A DNA stretch of 64,000 nt, taken from the NCBI RefSeq assembly GCF_002215215.1, contig NZ_CP018632.1, forward strand, positions 3,530,501 to 3,594,500, read 5' to 3'. This document shows positions 8,186-14,319 of this stretch, in pieces; positions within the stretch are counted from its first letter, which is position 1; each line of letters opens with the position of its first letter. This stretch comes from Granulosicoccus antarcticus IMCC3135. Its GTDB lineage: Bacteria; Pseudomonadota; Gammaproteobacteria; Granulosicoccales; Granulosicoccaceae. The position numbers were made by a program, and so were the translations under genes. The notes under the pieces are model-generated. The model was not told the origin of the DNA. It saw only the letters and a list, made by a program, of their open reading frames with translations, and did no database searches.

Positions 8186-8366
8186 TGATGAGCAAAAGGC
8201 CGAGACTGATTGGTTGTAATCGGCAAATAGGTGCTGATCTGAACGGCCTTGTAAAAAGAGCTTGCTCCAACTTCTCGCACAACAGTATTGACAATGTCTT
8301 CGTAATTCTGTCATTCTATATAACAGCACTAGTGTGCCATATATCAGAACAAACACAGGAGATATC

Positions 8367-8819
8367 ATGTTGTTTAAGCTGAGCGGCCTGGTCGCAGTTG
8401 TTCTAGCGTTGCCCCTGTTTGCATCCGCAGCCGAGGTGAGCCCAACGGTCAAGAAAATCCAGGATCGTGGCAGCTTGCTGTGTTCCGAACACAACGGAAG
8501 TTACTTCGGTTTTGTGGAAGTTGACGATAAAAACGAGTGGAAGGGTCTGGACATTGATCTCTGTCGTGCCTTGACGACCGCCATACTCGGCGATGCTGAC
8601 AAGGTGCAGATTGTGCCGTTGAGCTGGGCACAGCGTTTTCCGGCGCTGCAATCGGGTGATGTGGACATCATCATCAAAGCCACTGGCTGGACCATGGGCC
8701 GGGATACCGAATTGGGTCTGCAATTCAGTTTGCCCTACTTTTTTGGCGGTACCCAGTTAATGGCGCAGGAGGCAAAATCCTGCCATGGTCACGTCAATTG
8801 CTCTGAGTGTTCGGCATAA
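8367..8819 (+). pseudogene. aapJ: Truncated aapJ: general L-amino-acid-binding protein, N-terminal 150 residues only
   Basis: ATG 8367 follows AGGAGA and starts a good signal peptide ([22 protein letters not shown]). The mature part matches lobe 1 of the AapJ-type periplasmic binding proteins: [53 protein letters not shown]. Full-length AapJ is about 340 residues. Here the frame ends after SLPYFFGGTQLMAQEAK in an unrelated Cys-rich tail and runs 35 bases into aapQ. There is no room for the second lobe, so this is a deletion and not a simple frameshift. A single lobe cannot form the ligand cleft, so I call it a remnant. The AGGAGG at 8767-8772 near its end serves aapQ. Confidence 0.85.
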
Positions 8820-9915
8820 AAAACTCCTGATTCAGTTTCTATTGCTTGCCGGAACCATCGTGCTGGGCTGGTCGGCATTGAATAACGCTCGTACCAACCT
8901 TGATGCCCTGGGCATCACCAGCGGTTTTGCATTTCTGGATCGGGCCACAGGCTTGGGATATTCCTTTTCACTGGTGCCTCGTTCTATCGATGACAGCTAT
9001 GCGCGTACGCTGTTTATCGGGTTCATGAATACCTTGTTCGTCGGCTTCATTTCCATATTCCTGTCAACCATTCTGGGTTTTGCCATTGGCAGTTTGCGAG
9101 GCTCCAGCAAGTTGGGGTTGCAGGCTTTGTCATCTGTCTATGTGCAGATCTTTCGCAACATTCCACTCATACTCCAGCTCGTCTTCTGGTATTCGGTTCT
9201 GATTCACCTGCCAGGTCCGCGTCAGGCTTATTCGTTCATGGATGCAGTATTTCTGTCCAATCGAGGCCTGTTGCTGCCAATGCTCAATATCCCGATCTGG
9301 CTGGCACTGGGGCTGATACTGGTTTCTCTGTTATTGGGATTTATGCTGATTCGCAGAAAAACGGCGCTGCTGAGAGGCTTGATGATCTGGACGTTCAGCT
9401 GCGTGGCCCTGTTTGCACTGGCCAGTGTCATCATGACGCCAGCGGGCGAAAGTAGTGTCTCTGTGCCGGCTCTCAAGGGTCTGCGGTTCCAGGGCGGTCT
9501 GACTATTTCAGTGGAGCTGGTTGCCATGATCGTCGCCATTGTGCTGTATGGGTCGGCCTATATCGCAGAGGTCGTTCGTGGTGGCCTGGAGGGGGTGCCC
9601 GTGAATCTGGTTGAAGCGGGCAAGGCGCTGGGTCTGAATCGCCGGGTCATCTGGTCAGATATCAAGATGCCGCTGGCTCTGCGAAGCATCATTCCGCCGT
9701 TGGGTAATCAGTGGATCTTCATCATGAAAGCCACCACCATCGGTGTGGCGATCGGCTTCAGTGATCTGTTCATGCTGGTATCCACCTCCATTACCCAATC
9801 AGGTCAGACGCTTGAGCTGATTGGCATTCTCATGGGCGGATTTCTGCTGGTCAACTTCAGCCTGGCCCAGTTCATTAACTGGTTAAACCAGCACATTGCA
9901 TTGAAAGCCCACTGA
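8785..9915 (+). CDS. aapQ: General L-amino-acid ABC importer permease AapQ
   Basis: A 376-residue inner-membrane permease of the polar-amino-acid family, close to the usual AapQ length of about 400. Features are an N-terminal transmembrane helix (about 14-32), GYSFSLVPRSIDDSYARTLF with the start of the permease domain, SSVYVQIFRNIPLILQLVFW, the long AapQ-specific insertion in the middle (about 150-235), and the ATPase-coupling EAA loop VEAGKALGLNRRVIW. The extreme N-terminus (MVTSIALSVRHKK) is short, which fits a deletion that removed the end of aapJ and the first codons of aapQ. The start is ATG 8785 with AGGAGG 12 bases upstream. Its partner aapM is interrupted by a mobile element. Confidence 0.9.
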   Translation: MVTSIALSVRHKKLLIQFLLLAGTIVLGWSALNNARTNLDALGITSGFAFLDRATGLGYSFSLVPRSIDDSYARTLFIGFMNTLFVGFISIFLSTILGFAIGSLRGSSKLGLQALSSVYVQIFRNIPLILQLVFWYSVLIHLPGPRQAYSFMDAVFLSNRGLLLPMLNIPIWLALGLILVSLLLGFMLIRRKTALLRGLMIWTFSCVALFALASVIMTPAGESSVSVPALKGLRFQGGLTISVELVAMIVAIVLYGSAYIAEVVRGGLEGVPVNLVEAGKALGLNRRVIWSDIKMPLALRSIIPPLGNQWIFIMKATTIGVAIGFSDLFMLVSTSITQSGQTLELIGILMGGFLLVNFSLAQFINWLNQHIALKAH

Positions 9916-9949: not shown

Positions 9950-9973
9950 ATGAACACCCATTTTACCCCAACG
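9950..9973 (+). pseudogene. aapM: Severed 5' end of aapM (first 8 codons)
   Basis: ATG 9950, 34 bases after the aapQ stop, opens MNTHFTPT, the kind of N-terminus AapM proteins have. The frame then enters the inserted element. Joining base 9973 to base 13291 continues in frame into LKKRAFATPTDAVLS, the first recognisable AapM segment. AACG stands at both junctions (9970-9973 and 13287-13290), so the exact boundary is uncertain by up to 4 bases. Confidence 0.65.
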
Positions 9974-9982
9974 CGCGGAAAG

Positions 9983-10002
9983 CCTCGTCCTTCAGGGCGG
10001 GG
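9983..10002 (+). repeat. Left-end hairpin of the tnpB element; intron target stem
   Basis: CCTCGTCC-TTCA-GGGCGGGG forms an 8-bp stem (two G.U pairs) with a 4-base loop. The intron begins 8 bases downstream. IIC introns are known to insert just after stem-loops such as terminators, so this hairpin is a natural target. Confidence 0.65.
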
Positions 10003-10010
10003 ATGGATAG

Positions 10011-11847
10011 GTGCGCCCGGCATGGGTGCAATCTTGGAGGTGAAAGTCCTCCCGGAAGCTGACCATAGCGACCGAAGTGAAGCACAACTGCGCAAGGGCG
10101 ACCAAGCGTGGGGAGGAAGTGTCTAGCGAAACCACGAGCCGATGAACAAGAACCGAATATTGAGGCGTTATCAACCAGGGCGAGCGGGCCTATCATCGCG
10201 AAGCTCTTGTGGTCAAAGGGAGATAATGTAGATTCGGCGGTTGTGTGGGGAAGGATTGCAGTCTTACCCGGGGAGATCTCACCTTGCGCCTGAAAGGGCG
10301 ACGATCGTCTGGTCGGAGTGAGAAGTCAGCAGAGGCCATAGTAGTCGTCATCATGCGATGAAGGGCTAAACGAGAAGGAGAGCTAGAAGACGATGACGCT
10401 CGACAAAGCAAAGCACCAGAAACTCGGGAGATCGAGGCGCAGTGAGAGACGAACGGGTGAAGCCCGAAAGCTTTCTGCGCGCGGTGAAGCGGTGTCGGTG
10501 CCTCAACGAACCGAAGGCTTGGGGCGGGAGAATCTGCTTGAGCAGGCGCTCTCGCGAGAGAACATGGTGGAGGCGTGGAAACGCGTCAAAGCCAATAAAG
10601 GTAGTGCGGGCGTAGACGGTCTTTCAATCACTCAAACGATTGAATATCTTCACACCCAGTGGCCAGTGATCCGGGATGAATTGCTGCGCGGTAGTTATCG
10701 GCCATCGGCCGTGCGACGCGTGGAAATTCCGAAACCGGGTGGAGGCTCCAGGGAATTGGGGATACCCACCGTCATTGATCGCCTGATCCAGCAGGCACTG
10801 TTGCAAGTACTGCAACCCCTGCTTGACCCGACGTTCTCAAAGTTCAGCTACGGCTTTCGCCCGGGTCGAAGTGCCCATGATGCTGTGCTCCATGCACAGC
10901 AGTGTGTGCAACAAGGCTATCAGGTGGTGGTTGATGTGGATCTTGAGAAATTTTTCGACAGGGTTAATCACGACGTTCTCATGGACCGGCTGAGTAAGCG
11001 AATCGACGATAAGGCCGTTCTTCGGTTGATTCGACGATTTCTTCGAGCTGGCGTCATGATCAACGGCGTATTGGTGGAACGCTTGGAGGGAACCGTACAA
11101 GGCTCCCCTCTTTCACCGTTACTGGCTAATGTGCTGTTGGACGAAGTGGATCAGGCTCTGGAGAGGCGCGGACACAAGTTTGCCCGATACGCCGATGACT
11201 GCAATGTGTATGTTCGTAGTCAACGGGCGGGGGAACGGGTACTGCGCTCTCTTCGGAAGCTGTATGCAAAACTGCACCTTCGGGTGAACGAGGCAAAGAC
11301 TGCAGTCGGGCCCGTGTTTGGTCGTAAGTTTCTGGGCTACTGCTTACGGCGGTGGAGTGGGAACACGGTTAAAATTGCGGTATCACCTTCGGCAATCGTC
11401 AAGTTCAAGCAGCGCATCCGGCAAATCACACGTCGCGTCGGTGGTCGCAGCCTTGTTCAGGTCGCGGTAGAACTTCGAAGTTTCATTCCCGGTTGGAAGG
11501 CCTACTTTCATCTGGCACGTACTCCGAAAATCTTCCGTGATTTGGACGGCTGGATACGACGCCGATTGCGGGCCATCCAGCTCAAGCACTGGCGACGTGG
11601 CCGTACGACGTTTGACGCTTTACGTCGTCTCGATGCCTCGCAGGAGTTGGCTAAGCTCATCGCTTGTTCTAGCAAACGTTGTTGGCACAACAGCCTTTCG
11701 GGATTGCACTTTATTCTATCAGTCAAATACTACGATGGCTTAGATGTACCTCGTCTCTCATGACCTCAACTTCTCGAACCGCCCGGTGCGGACCCGCATG
11801 CCGGGTGGTGTGGGAGGGGCCCGTCTTCGGTCGGCCCCTATCCCGAT
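10011..11847 (+). ncRNA. Group II intron (IIC-like) ribozyme with encoded maturase
   Basis: The 5' end is GTGCGCCCGG, matching the GUGYG start of group II introns. Domain V is at 11776-11809: ACCGCCCGG pairs with CCGGGTGGT, capped by TGCG-GACC-CGCA, and it carries CGC in the triad region as IIC introns do. Domain VI follows: GGGA/TCCC and GGGGCC/GGCCCC stems with a bulged A at 11840, 7 bases before the proposed 3' end at 11847 (GAT). Domain IV holds the reverse transcriptase. All catalytic parts I can see are intact, so splicing and mobility are plausible. EBS/IBS pairings were not worked out, and the class assignment rests on domain V, the protein and the hairpin target. Confidence 0.85.
10393..11763 (+). 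CDS. ltrA: Group II intron reverse transcriptase/maturase
   Basis: A 456-residue intron-encoded protein in domain IV of the intron. RT motifs are in order: GSAGVDGLS (71-78), SYGFRPGRSAHDAV (152-165), VVDVDLEKFFDRVNHD (179-194, first catalytic Asp), QGSPLSPLLANVLLDE (236-251) and the active-site YADD (266-269). The maturase domain X covers about 320-440 (GWKAYF, LDGWIRRRLR) and ends GLDVPRLS. There is no HNH endonuclease domain, as in IIC-type introns that invade hairpin or replication-fork targets. The start ATG 10393 has AAGGAG 13 bases upstream. No frameshift or lost catalytic residue is visible. Confidence 0.93.
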   Translation: MTLDKAKHQKLGRSRRSERRTGEARKLSARGEAVSVPQRTEGLGRENLLEQALSRENMVEAWKRVKANKGSAGVDGLSITQTIEYLHTQWPVIRDELLRGSYRPSAVRRVEIPKPGGGSRELGIPTVIDRLIQQALLQVLQPLLDPTFSKFSYGFRPGRSAHDAVLHAQQCVQQGYQVVVDVDLEKFFDRVNHDVLMDRLSKRIDDKAVLRLIRRFLRAGVMINGVLVERLEGTVQGSPLSPLLANVLLDEVDQALERRGHKFARYADDCNVYVRSQRAGERVLRSLRKLYAKLHLRVNEAKTAVGPVFGRKFLGYCLRRWSGNTVKIAVSPSAIVKFKQRIRQITRRVGGRSLVQVAVELRSFIPGWKAYFHLARTPKIFRDLDGWIRRRLRAIQLKHWRRGRTTFDALRRLDASQELAKLIACSSKRCWHNSLSGLHFILSVKYYDGLDVPRLS

Positions 11848-11999
11848 CGCTAGAGGCGAAGCCTCTTGCTCGCCTAGCTCGAAGGTTTCTCTTCCCTGAT
11901 TCGATAGTAATTATACATTCCTGCATGGCTGTATATAAATACAGTATATTTTGAGTATCTGTGGCATGATCTCTATCGGTCCAGTGTATTCTTCATTCC
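11848..11999 (+). other. 152-bp spacer between intron and tnpB
   Basis: The first bases form a stem AGAGGC-GAA-GCCTCT inside an outer GCTAG/CTAGC pairing. An AT-rich stretch with the LexA-like site follows. No ORF is supported. Confidence 0.5.
11929..11944 (+). promoter_or_regulatory. LexA-like SOS box upstream of tnpB
   Basis: CTGTATATAAATACAG fits CTG-N10-CAG with the alternating TA core of the gammaproteobacterial LexA consensus, and is followed by TATATT as in many SOS promoters. It lies 55 bases before the tnpB ATG and 81 bases after the intron end. If functional, tnpB would be repressed by LexA and released by DNA damage. Confidence 0.65.
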
Positions 12000-13238
12000 A
12001 TGGAACGTCTACAAGCCTTCAAATTCGAGCTACGCCCCAATGGTGAACAAACCCGCCAGCTGTGGCAGTTTGCAGGCAGTTCTCGGTTTGTCTACAACAA
12101 GGCATTGGCACTTCAGCAAGAGAACCATAAGGCCGAACTGAAGTACATCAGCTATGTCCAGATGTGCAAGAGCCTGACAACCTGGCGTAAAGATCGAGGC
12201 ACACTGTGGCTTCAACTAGCACCCGCTCAAACGTTGCAGCAATCGCTGAAAGATCTTGATCGGGCCTATCAGAACTTCTTTTCCAAACGCGCTGCTTTCC
12301 CCTCGTACAAAAAGAAAGGCCGTGGGAATAGCTTTCGCTTCCCCGAGCCCAAACAGTTCAAGCTTGATCAGACCAATAATCGTATTTTTCTACCCAAGTT
12401 AGGCTGGATGCGCTACCGAAACAGCCGTCATGTCATCGGCACGCTACGCAATATCACCGTCAGTGAGCGAGGCGGTAAGTGGTACTTTTCAATTCAGACT
12501 GCACAACAGGTTGAGACTCCTCTACACCCATCCACAACAGCGATTGGTCTCGACTTGGGCATCACCGTTTTTGCAGCACAAAGCGACGGTGTCATTCATT
12601 TGCCGAAGAACAGTTTTGCACAACTTCGACGACAACTGGCACACGCACAGCGAGCCCTGGCTCGTCGGTGCAAGTATTCCCGCAATTGGAAAAAACAGAA
12701 AGCGAAAATTGCTCGTCTGTATATTCGAATCGCCAATGTCCGAGCAGACTACCTACATCAGAAATCACACCTCATTTGCAAAAATCACGCGGTGGTGTGT
12801 ATCGAAGACCTGAAGGTCAGCAATATGTCTCGTTCGGCTTCCGGCACCCAACAAAATCCTGGAAAAAACGTCAAGGCGAAATCGGGTCTCAATCGAGCAA
12901 TTCTCGATCAAGGTTGGAGTGAATTCCGTCGACAGTTGGGCTACAAGCTCAAGTGGGCGGGTGGTGATCTGATTGTGGTGCCAGCTCAGTACACGAGTCA
13001 GCAATGCTCGGACTGTGGCCATATCGCGCAAGAGAACCGCAAGATTCAAGAGAGCTTTTGCTGTGTGTCTTGTGGGTTTGCAGAGAACGCCGATATCAAT
13101 GCGGCAAAGAATATCGTAGCGGCGGGACACGCCGTGATGGCCTGTGGAGGGGACGTTAGACCTGAATTGCACGAACATGCAGTTAAGGCAGCCCCAGTGA
13201 AGCAGGAACCCACCGAAGCGATTCAGGCATGTGCTTGA
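12000..13238 (+). CDS. tnpB: TnpB RNA-guided nuclease of an IS200/IS605-family (IS1341-type) element
   Basis: A 412-residue TnpB, the ancestor-type relative of Cas12, which uses an omega-RNA made from the element's right end to cut DNA beside a short motif. The N-terminal OrfB_IS605 domain starts MERLQAFKFELRPN. The split RuvC site is complete: Asp185 in GLDLGI, Glu269 in VCIEDL and Asp365 in NADINAAKN. The zinc ribbon is Cys336/339 and Cys355/358 (CSDCG, CVSCG). The tail ends VKQEPTEAIQ, the usual end that runs into the omega-RNA scaffold. No Shine-Dalgarno is obvious before ATG 12000. There is no tnpA. The protein appears active. Confidence 0.93.
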   Translation: MERLQAFKFELRPNGEQTRQLWQFAGSSRFVYNKALALQQENHKAELKYISYVQMCKSLTTWRKDRGTLWLQLAPAQTLQQSLKDLDRAYQNFFSKRAAFPSYKKKGRGNSFRFPEPKQFKLDQTNNRIFLPKLGWMRYRNSRHVIGTLRNITVSERGGKWYFSIQTAQQVETPLHPSTTAIGLDLGITVFAAQSDGVIHLPKNSFAQLRRQLAHAQRALARRCKYSRNWKKQKAKIARLYIRIANVRADYLHQKSHLICKNHAVVCIEDLKVSNMSRSASGTQQNPGKNVKAKSGLNRAILDQGWSEFRRQLGYKLKWAGGDLIVVPAQYTSQQCSDCGHIAQENRKIQESFCCVSCGFAENADINAAKNIVAAGHAVMACGGDVRPELHEHAVKAAPVKQEPTEAIQACA

Positions 13239-13290
13239 ACGCCGTAGGAATCCCCTTCGTTCGTTTTAGGGAGGGGAGGACGTCAAAACG
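13150..13290 (+). ncRNA. Predicted omega-RNA scaffold and right end of the tnpB element
   Basis: By analogy with characterised TnpB elements, the guide RNA covers the 3' end of tnpB and the right end. A stem CCCCTTC (13252-13258) with GGGAGGGG (13269-13276) is followed by AGGACGTCAAAACG. The guide would be the next ~16-20 bases, 13291-13310, which are the first codons of the interrupted aapM. The 5' limit is a guess. Confidence 0.5.
13273..13280 (+). promoter_or_regulatory. Shine-Dalgarno supplied by the IS right end to the aapM fragment
   Basis: GGGGAGGA, the 3' arm of the right-end hairpin, lies 10 bases before TTG 13291, the only start codon that keeps all recognisable AapM sequence. It is shared with the hairpin, so opening of that stem would affect translation. 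Confidence 0.5.
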
Positions 13291-14319
13291 TTGAAAAAGC
13301 GGGCGTTTGCCACGCCGACCGATGCTGTTTTGTCGATCATCATTTTCGGTGGACTTGCCTATGCGCTGTGGCTGGCGCTGGATTGGGCTGTGTTTCGAGC
13401 CGTGTGGAGCAAGGAGAACGTGGCGGCCTGTGGTGAGGCGGTCGGGGCCTGCTGGTCGGTCATCGATGCACGGCACCGGCTCATTCTTTTCGGGTTATAC
13501 CCCTACGAAGAACATTGGCGTTCGACACTGGCCTGCCTTGCCATTGTGGCAACCGTTGTTGTGTCCTGCTTTCCATGGTCGTGGAAAACAGCGCGACTGA
13601 GCACACTGTGGGTGGCAGGCTTCGCCCTCTATTATCTGTTGATGACCGGCACCTTGCTCGGTTTGCCGACGGTTACCACCGATCAATGGGGTGGTCTGGC
13701 GCTGACACTATTCCTGTTTGCAAGCGTGGTACTGATCGGTATGCCCATGGGGCTTGGACTAGCATTGATGCGTCGTTCCGAGATGCCGGTAGTGCGGTTG
13801 CTGGCCTCGTTGCTGATTGATTTCATCAGATCCTTGCCCTTGCTGACAACCTTGTTCACAGCGGCCGTCGTTTTCCCTTTGCTGCTGCCTGACTGGTTGC
13901 AGGGTGACAAGATCTGGCGTGTGATTTTCGCATTCGCCCTGTTTTTTGCCTGCTATCAGGCCGAGGTTTTTCGAGGTGGGTTTCAGGCCATTCCAAAGGG
14001 GCAGTTTGAAGCGGGCAAGGCGCTGGGTCTGGGCTACTGGAAGATACTGTTCAACATCGTATTACCCCAGGTCTTTCGACAGGCATTGCCATCGACCATC
14101 AATATGGTGGTCATTACTTTCAAGGAGACGGCCATTGTCATCATCATCGGTTTTTTCGATGTACTAGCCTCTGCCAATGCCGCCTTTGGTACGGGAGAGT
14201 GGTCGCCGTACTATATGGAAGTGTATGCGTTTGTGGCAGCCCTGTACTGGCTGTTCATCTTTTCTCTGGGGCAATACGGGGAGTATCTGGGTAAGCGGAT
14301 GTCGGTGGCGCAGCGTTAG
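13291..14319 (+). CDS. aapM: General L-amino-acid ABC importer permease AapM, 5' end displaced
   Basis: A 342-residue frame from TTG 13291 that matches AapM from its conserved LKKRAFATPTDAVLS segment to the end. It has the AapM-type extracytoplasmic part with CGEAVGACW and FGLYPYEEHWRSTL, the permease core DFIRSLPLLTTLFTAAVVFP and the EAA loop FEAGKALGLGYWKILF. The native start (codons 1-8) lies at 9950-9973, beyond the inserted element. Translation might restart here using the GGGGAGGA of the IS right end, but transcription from aap would have to cross the intron and IS. No ATPase gene follows; the nearest AapP-like ATPase is at 35496-36239. Confidence 0.85.
   Translation: MKKRAFATPTDAVLSIIIFGGLAYALWLALDWAVFRAVWSKENVAACGEAVGACWSVIDARHRLILFGLYPYEEHWRSTLACLAIVATVVVSCFPWSWKTARLSTLWVAGFALYYLLMTGTLLGLPTVTTDQWGGLALTLFLFASVVLIGMPMGLGLALMRRSEMPVVRLLASLLIDFIRSLPLLTTLFTAAVVFPLLLPDWLQGDKIWRVIFAFALFFACYQAEVFRGGFQAIPKGQFEAGKALGLGYWKILFNIVLPQVFRQALPSTINMVVITFKETAIVIIIGFFDVLASANAAFGTGEWSPYYMEVYAFVAALYWLFIFSLGQYGEYLGKRMSVAQR

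Follow-up and report, generated by a model that had tools for sequence, protein, structure and literature searches.

The window, as we call the stretch analysed here, spans 64,000 nt of the 7.78 Mb, single-contig genome of Granulosicoccus antarcticus IMCC3135 (NZ_CP018632.1, positions 3,530,501 to 3,594,500). It contains an aapM-like permease gene that is interrupted near its 5' end by a tnpB element, which itself carries a group IIC intron. The arrangement very probably arose by two nested insertions: a tnpB element entered the permease gene, and an intron from a clade that targets the ends of insertion sequences (IS) then entered the left end of that element. At the level of sequence we regard as established the borders of the insertions, the empty sites, the independent histories of intron and IS, the clade and, in most copies, the match between exon-binding site 1 of the intron (EBS1) and intron-binding site 1 of the 5' exon (IBS1).

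As to mechanism, an IS608-type, tnpB-only element would first have inserted 3' of TTAC in the permease gene. The intron would then have entered the left end of the element by reverse splicing into DNA, with EBS1 (CTATC) pairing to IBS1 (GATAG), and within this genome it would have spread among left ends separately from the IS. An intron at the left-end site would presumably be harmless to IS movement, and one at the right-end site would not.

Two insertions at the start of a permease gene

The open reading frame (ORF) of the permease gene starts at 9950 and is broken after 17 nt by an insertion extending from 9967 to 13286. A domain match (BPD_transp_1) identifies the product as a permease; the name aapM comes from an initial annotation of the window. 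In the sister species G019, which encodes an 88% identical protein, the gene is uninterrupted and the insertion is absent. Features of the locus are as follows, with the evidence for each in brackets.

9950..9966, + strand: start of the aapM-like gene (17 nt), with the target TTTAC as its last bases (sequence, G019 comparison)
9967..13286, + strand: entire insertion, an IS608-type tnpB-only element with a group IIC intron (copy comparison, G019)
9979..9982, + strand: left guide AAAG, abutting the left hairpin on its 5' side (copy comparison; IS608-like layout, as described in part of PMC5934647)
9983..10002, + strand: left-end hairpin CCTCGTCC/GGGCGGGG, with two G-T pairs (sequence; not favoured by the single-stranded DNA (ssDNA) fold)
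10006..10010, + strand: IBS1 GATAG, 5' exon of the intron (exon comparison, EBS1/IBS1 analysis)
10011..11847, + strand: group IIC intron, 1837 nt, starting 8 nt past the left hairpin (Rfam, copies, empty sites)
10190..10194, + strand: EBS1 CTATC, 5/5 pairs with IBS1 (sequence, EBS1/IBS1 analysis)
10393..11763, + strand: intron-encoded reverse transcriptase (RT)/maturase, 456 aa, YADD present (ORF list, domain and structure matches)
11776..11847, + strand: putative domain V-VI region of the intron, assigned by eye (sequence)
11848..11999, + strand: spacer between intron and tnpB, the same as in intron-free copy F1 (copy comparison)
11929..11944, + strand: LexA-like palindrome CTGTATATAAATACAG (copies in this genome and in species G012)
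12000..13238, + strand: tnpB, 412 aa, RNA-guided endonuclease family (domain match and further protein comparison)
13248..13251, + strand: right guide GAAT (sequence, copy comparison)
13252..13276, + strand: right-end hairpin, the expected 3' hairpin of the putative omega RNA (sequence)
13283..13286, + strand: right cleavage site TCAA (sequence, copy comparison)
13287..14319, + strand: remainder of the aapM-like gene (ORF list, domain match, G019 comparison)

The ends of the insertion follow from a comparison of eight elements in this genome: E1 (the copy in the window), E2, E3, E4, F1, F2, G1 and G2. Directly before the left end stands TTTAC in six of the eight and TTTAT in the two G elements, the right end reads GTCAA, and the outer DNA differs. 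Element starts and ends were cut by script at these motifs; the printed sequences show that similarity stops there. Target and left guide covary, TTAC occurring with AAAG and TTAT with AAAA (G elements L010, L011, L019, L022, L023). The TTAC target, the TCAA cleavage site, guides beside the end hairpins and the lack of a target duplication identify a member of the IS200/IS605 family. Its only long ORFs encode the 456-aa group II RT/maturase and the 412-aa TnpB; with tnpA absent from the ORF list of 9967-13286, the element is of the tnpB-only (IS1341-like) kind. The G elements carry a Y1 transposase gene (tnpB plus tnpA), and two of the 12 Y1_Tnp matches in the genome lie within related G elements; the element in the window is presumably moved in trans by a Y1 transposase. 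Full composites of IS and intron (E1-E4) occupy four genomic sites with unrelated flanks, and the block is therefore more than a chance association.

Much of the initial annotation is borne out. It had described a left hairpin, a complete intron of IIC type in the left end, a spacer, an intact tnpB and a right hairpin inside the 5' end of the permease gene, and had observed that removal of the block restores an open frame. The insertion it placed at 9974-13290 is real, but the ends need to be moved by 7 nt on the left and 4 nt on the right. The AACG seen at both of those borders is no border repeat: the left one belongs to the element and the right one to the host flank, and we reject the pair as a target duplication and regard it as coincidence. 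Nor do the first eight codons belong wholly to the host, whose share of them is just 17 nt. Without 9967-13286 the frame is open, with seven codons ahead of LKKRAFATP (the earlier borders give eight); the uninterrupted gene of G019, an intact relative of the kind it had proposed to look for, likewise has seven (MQRHVAS-LKKRAFATP).

In the uninterrupted gene the first 16 nt of 13287..14319 adjoin TTTAC, and they would serve as the TnpB guide. The right-end sequence GGAGGGGAGG (within 13269-13293) stands about 11 nt ahead of a TTG at 13291, where a shortened permease might start.

The intron has a group II ribozyme core according to Rfam (group-II-D1D4-3, 113.8 bits; D1D4-1, 47.3 bits). Its borders, GTGCG...CCCGAT, are fixed by empty sites: intron-free copies, in which the left 37 bp are joined to the post-intron part, read GATGGATAG|CGCTA. 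The intron-encoded protein (IEP) has RVT_1 and GIIM domains only and no endonuclease domain, as in class C; its best structure match is GsI-IIC RT (E 7e-131), which together with the 7uim maturase is far ahead of the next group II proteins among the solved relatives. Insertion 3' of a stem-loop with a short EBS1/IBS1 pairing also agrees with class C, the left-end hairpin being one that ssDNA folding does not favour. The usual IIC target, which is typical of the class rather than defining, is a terminator T-tract or an attC site; here the exon is GATGGATAG of an IS end. The RT/maturase is intact in all four E copies, and between the E1 and E3 copies there are 29 silent codon differences and 13 that alter the amino acid. 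To judge from these sequences the intron is probably active, splicing and retrohoming. Five of the 12 GIIM matches in the genome belong to this intron family.

Excision of the intron alone leaves 3320 - 1837 = 1483 nt of the tnpB element in the gene; splicing therefore cannot repair aapM.

Separate histories of intron and IS

The histories of intron and tnpB disagree. E3 and E4 have identical introns (0/1837 differences), and differ at 20/147 positions in the spacer and at 102/1429 (7%) in the part from 11848 to the end; the nearest flanking differences lie within a few tens of nucleotides of the intron borders. E1 and the intron-free F1 have the same spacer (0/152 differences). On a tnpB tree of eight rows, in which three of five inner branches are open, intron-free F2 (whose spacer holds another insert) is sister to intron-bearing E3 with support of 99/99, and intron presence does not form a clade. 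The introns of E2, E3 and E4 share an identical first 1317 nt.

Elements without the intron are readily found. In this genome the left ends of F1, F2 and G2 are intron-free, and in species G012 of the same genus three copies carry the empty site GATGGATAG|CGCTA; no intron match was found in G012 among the 5 scored of 28 candidates. Altogether nine left ends were recovered from this genome, six with the intron or its start (E1-E4, G1 and fragment L013), which came from a junction pattern search, and three without (F1, F2, G2), which came from a left-end search.

These data bear on whether the composite is a group II counterpart of the IStron, in which intron and tnpB element move as one unit through excision and insertion by a Y1 transposase. 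Four complete composites at four sites would be expected on this account, as would the intact left guide, hairpin, TTAC and right end in the presence of the intron. The divergence between E2 and E3 is also similar in intron (1.8%) and tnpB (2.7%), and taken alone would fit joint movement. The account is nevertheless improbable given the identical E3/E4 introns within tnpB parts that are 7% different, the shared 1317 nt of E2, E3 and E4, the scattering of the intron on the tnpB tree, and the copies that lack the intron, here and in G012. Separate insertions fit the sequences better, because E3 and E4 combine identical introns with diverged tnpB parts and because F2 is sister to E3. Joint movement of intron and IS, which the initial annotation had raised, is thus not supported, since both occur apart and their histories disagree; the four composites equally speak against its converse, that the two are only ever found separately and never share a copy. 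Now and then the composite may still move.

A second account holds that the introns were spread or homogenised not by retrohoming but by gene conversion, through homologous recombination from one tnpB element to another. Among the 48 variable positions in the introns of E1-E4, 15 are peculiar to E1, 32 separate E1 and E2 from E3 and E4, and one is peculiar to E2. These introns are mosaics, and so recombination between copies plays a part. As the main route of spread we consider it unlikely: the identity of E3 and E4 stops near each intron border, with differences in the flanks, and the same intron family is present in a different element with tnpB and tnpA (G1) and, as H1 (described below), beside a third type of tnpB, at its right end.

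Several further features of the elements were noted. A LexA-like palindrome, CTGT-N8-ACAG, precedes tnpB in 9/9 inspected copies of this tnpB type (E1-E4, F1, F2 and three in G012; L184, L186, L187), its inner bases varying; the exact palindrome CTGTATATNNATACAG occurs five times in the genome (control, 0), and the lexA gene itself has just the weaker CTG-N10-CAG. SOS control of tnpB would be a guess. Two short elements (L014, L016), in which a right end stands close to a left-end-like hairpin, resemble internal-deletion derivatives of the tnpB element. At G000:C1:5197831-5198440 (L021, L175, L181) there is a Y1 transposase frame containing a TGA; some 110 bp away, on the same strand, is what remains of a group II maturase.

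A group IIC lineage at the ends of IS200/IS605 elements

In order to place the intron among its relatives, the IEP was compared with the 80 best of 450 candidates in GTDB genomes, a pair from a Polaromonas sp. JS666 plasmid, viral contigs and one E. coli chromosome. Exons ending in GATGT, GATGA, GGATAG or GGTTA were labelled as IS-end. A first tree (94 rows, including the distant viral rows L146-L149) united 12 IS-end rows and one of unknown exon in one clade (SH-aLRT 100). In a second tree (91 rows, 76 different), from which L146-L149 were left out and to which L161 was added, all 13 rows with IS-end-like exons formed one clade (100/100) with L045, whose exon is not on the contig and whose EBS1 is CTATC. 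The 61 rows with other exons fall outside; for 17 rows the exon is unknown. The introns of G1 and H1 are not in the trees because their ORFs are interrupted or deleted.

Among the 61 other rows, TTT occurs in the last 14 nt of the exon in 54, as against none of the 12 IS-end rows examined, and an exact stem of at least 5 bp lies in the last 40 nt of the exon in 57; to judge by exon sequence, these introns insert mostly at terminator-like hairpins with T-tracts. The clade, by comparison, has an IS gene adjoining the intron in 9 of its 13 labelled members: TnpB (E1-E4, L041, L141), a partial TnpB (L098), Y1_Tnp (L042), and a shortened 272-aa TnpB plus tnpA (L161). Its hosts are labelled Pseudomonadota, Verrucomicrobiota (L043, L098) and Acidobacteriota (L039), several from metagenome-assembled genomes in which host assignment is uncertain. 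On JS666 plasmid 2 (L141) introns stand in tandem, a second IIC intron beginning with no gap where the first one ends and being followed by CAA; L043 likewise has a second IIC intron exactly at the first one's 3' end.

The lineage extends to enteric plasmids. A 461-base piece of the JS666 right-end junction matches 90/5426 E. coli genomes, in 33 over at least 80% of the query, and 86 of the 92 places are on plasmids. Six inspected records (five E. coli, one Klebsiella) all read GGATGT|GTGCG. Among them an RT/maturase is annotated in L161 alone; L151 and L164 are short ORF-less introns followed by CAA; the motif used found no intact intron 3' end in L152, L162 and L163; and besides L161 none shows a TnpB gene directly beside the intron in annotation or ORF list. 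ORF-less introns of the lineage occur in a viral contig (L142), an IncY plasmid (L151) and a Klebsiella plasmid (L164), the last two with phage holin and tail-fibre genes near by. The right-end junction pattern (at most one mismatch) was found in 1/369 genomes of the class, the window's own; in viral contigs the left-end GGTTA junction had no match and the GGATRN junction one; intron DNA matched 5/57 genomes of relatives, the four besides the window's own over short stretches only, with at most five candidates scored per genome; and a search of phage records gave one partial match (16%).

This genome also holds a copy at a right end. H1, a 952-nt member of the same family with an ORF deletion, sits after the right-end hairpin of a different TnpB gene (Pfam OrfB_IS605 and Cas12f1-like_TNB). 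The junction reads GGATGT|intron|CAA, which places H1 between hairpin and TCAA cleavage site. A 3' intron fragment (L015) has lost its 5' side and has CAAGAG after it. EBS1 is ACGTC in H1 and G1 and CTATC in E1-E4; within their first 400 nt E2 and G1 show 11 differences, and the adjacent bases 180-182 inside EBS1 account for three of them.

EBS1 usually fits the end that is occupied, CTATC matching left-end GATAG and ACATC or ACGTC matching right-end GATGT; L162 has TCATC at a GATGT site, with one mismatch. Pairing was scored for 76 of 78 rows, which yielded 52 different combinations. These average 4.10/5 pairs, compared with 2.69 for shuffled partners (0/20000 as good), and the seven IS-end combinations average 4.43/5, compared with 3.51 (174/20000). 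IS-end EBS1 against terminator IBS1 gives 1.73/5. In length, this pairing is consistent with the IIC structure in the part of PMC10190682 consulted.

The same data speak to the idea that this is an ordinary terminator-targeting IIC intron that landed after IS hairpins by chance. IIC introns do use terminators, inserting after their hairpins, and less often attC sites (parts of PMC4424553 and PMC8919778). A chance landing is nonetheless very hard to credit when a single clade holds 13/13 labelled members, no T-tract exon is among the 12 counted, and the IS-end EBS1 is not complementary to T-tracts. The sequences argue instead for a IIC lineage that usually inserts at the hairpins of IS200/IS605 ends, right (GGATGT|CAA) or left (GGATAG|C). 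This preference for right- or left-end hairpins, common to relatives in other bacteria, escaped the initial annotation; it suggests an intron that is a parasite of parasites.

In addition to the mosaic introns and the E2/E3 comparison, several points weigh against nested insertion by an intron of such a clade. G1 sits at a left end yet has the right-end-type EBS1 ACGTC, with 3/5 pairs; it looks like either a stepping stone or an exception to the rule. L042 and L044 pair at 4/5. The EBS1 loop position was picked after complementary loops had been seen, and so the pairing is support, not proof. The exon label, too, is a motif written after the sites were seen, and IS identity therefore needs the neighbour genes; no IS gene was found beside L039, L040, L043 and L044, 4 of the 13 members. 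Finally, predicted ssDNA folds of both ends do not surpass the folds of shuffled sequences, and at the left end the minimum-energy fold differs from the expected hairpin. Folding thus does not serve as proof of the element ends; the putative end hairpins rest on conservation and the IS608-like layout.

A more far-reaching possibility, which we put forward tentatively and think rather doubtful, is that IS200/IS605 hairpins are the normal home of this IIC lineage, that an intron at the right end controls TnpB, and that a change in EBS1 opened the left end. At GGATGT|CAA the intron would separate the scaffold hairpin of the TnpB guide RNA from the guide itself (the omega-RNA interpretation of the right hairpin follows TnpB work in part of PMC8612924). 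A working guide would have to await splicing, which would give the intron control of the nuclease. Three base changes in EBS1 would have switched one branch to the left end; an intron there would leave hairpin, guide and cleavage sites intact, and the IS would still move, carrying the intron.

The damaged operon, known systems and significance

Two genes lie upstream of the permease gene:

8334..8819, + strand: aapJ-like gene, 3'-truncated, 161 aa (354 aa in G019) (ORF list, domain match, G019 comparison)
8785..9915, + strand: aapQ-like permease gene (ORF list, domain match)

Compared with G019, the aapJ-like gene lacks about 676 bp, its 3' half, and continues into the aapQ-like gene; the operon therefore bears a second lesion.

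Comparison with known systems draws on parts of the papers cited. Like group IIC introns at terminators and attC sites, the intron has a stem-loop DNA target with a short EBS1/IBS1 (target structure, PMC10190682) and an RT without endonuclease domain whose best structural relative is GsI-IIC RT. It differs in that its sites are IS200/IS605 end hairpins without a T-tract and that EBS1 is complementary to GATAG, GATGT, GATGA or GTTA, not to a T-rich sequence. An intron within an IS is already known, from E. coli (PMC3522654) and Thermosynechococcus elongatus (PMC2882425). The T. elongatus F4 introns also occupy a conserved site in an IS200-family element, ISEL1, but belong to another, cyanobacterial intron set, and the part of PMC2882425 consulted mentions no hairpin at that site; the same paper, dealing with twintrons, argues for separate insertion from inner introns that are identical although their hosts have diverged. 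E. coli E.c.I2, I3, I4 and I9 are likewise group II introns specialised on IS, but home into Rsh IS, IS679 and IS3-type elements, and the same source places the class C introns Di.ze.I1 and So.gl.I1 at terminators (PMC3522654). IStrons, composed of a group I intron and parts of IS200/IS605 or IS607, share the order of intron left and tnpB right (PMC4227781). Here, by contrast, the intron is group II, not group I, and is nested within the IS rather than making up the whole element; splicing would leave those 1483 nt in place, and intron and IS also occur apart. IS608 and IS1341-type tnpB elements share the TTAC, AAAG, GAAT, TCAA layout and the presence of tnpB (PMC5934647); unlike them, the element here has no tnpA inside and carries an intron.

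What appears to be new is a IIC clade that keeps to the hairpins of IS200/IS605 ends and has an EBS1 fitting the left or right end. Literature searches, which covered few subscription papers, turned up no work on IIC introns at IS200/IS605 ends. At the locus in the window the consequence is that intron and IS are two separate insertions and that splicing cannot rescue the gene. More generally, one genome holds a right-end EBS1 at a right end (H1), a right-end EBS1 at a left end (G1) and a left-end EBS1 (E1-E4), which makes IIC retargeting directly testable. The lineage also concerns an intensively studied molecule, the TnpB guide RNA, whose hairpin it touches. If the clade is indeed tied to these ends, IS200/IS605 hairpins would constitute a third class of structured IIC target, besides those of terminators and attC sites.

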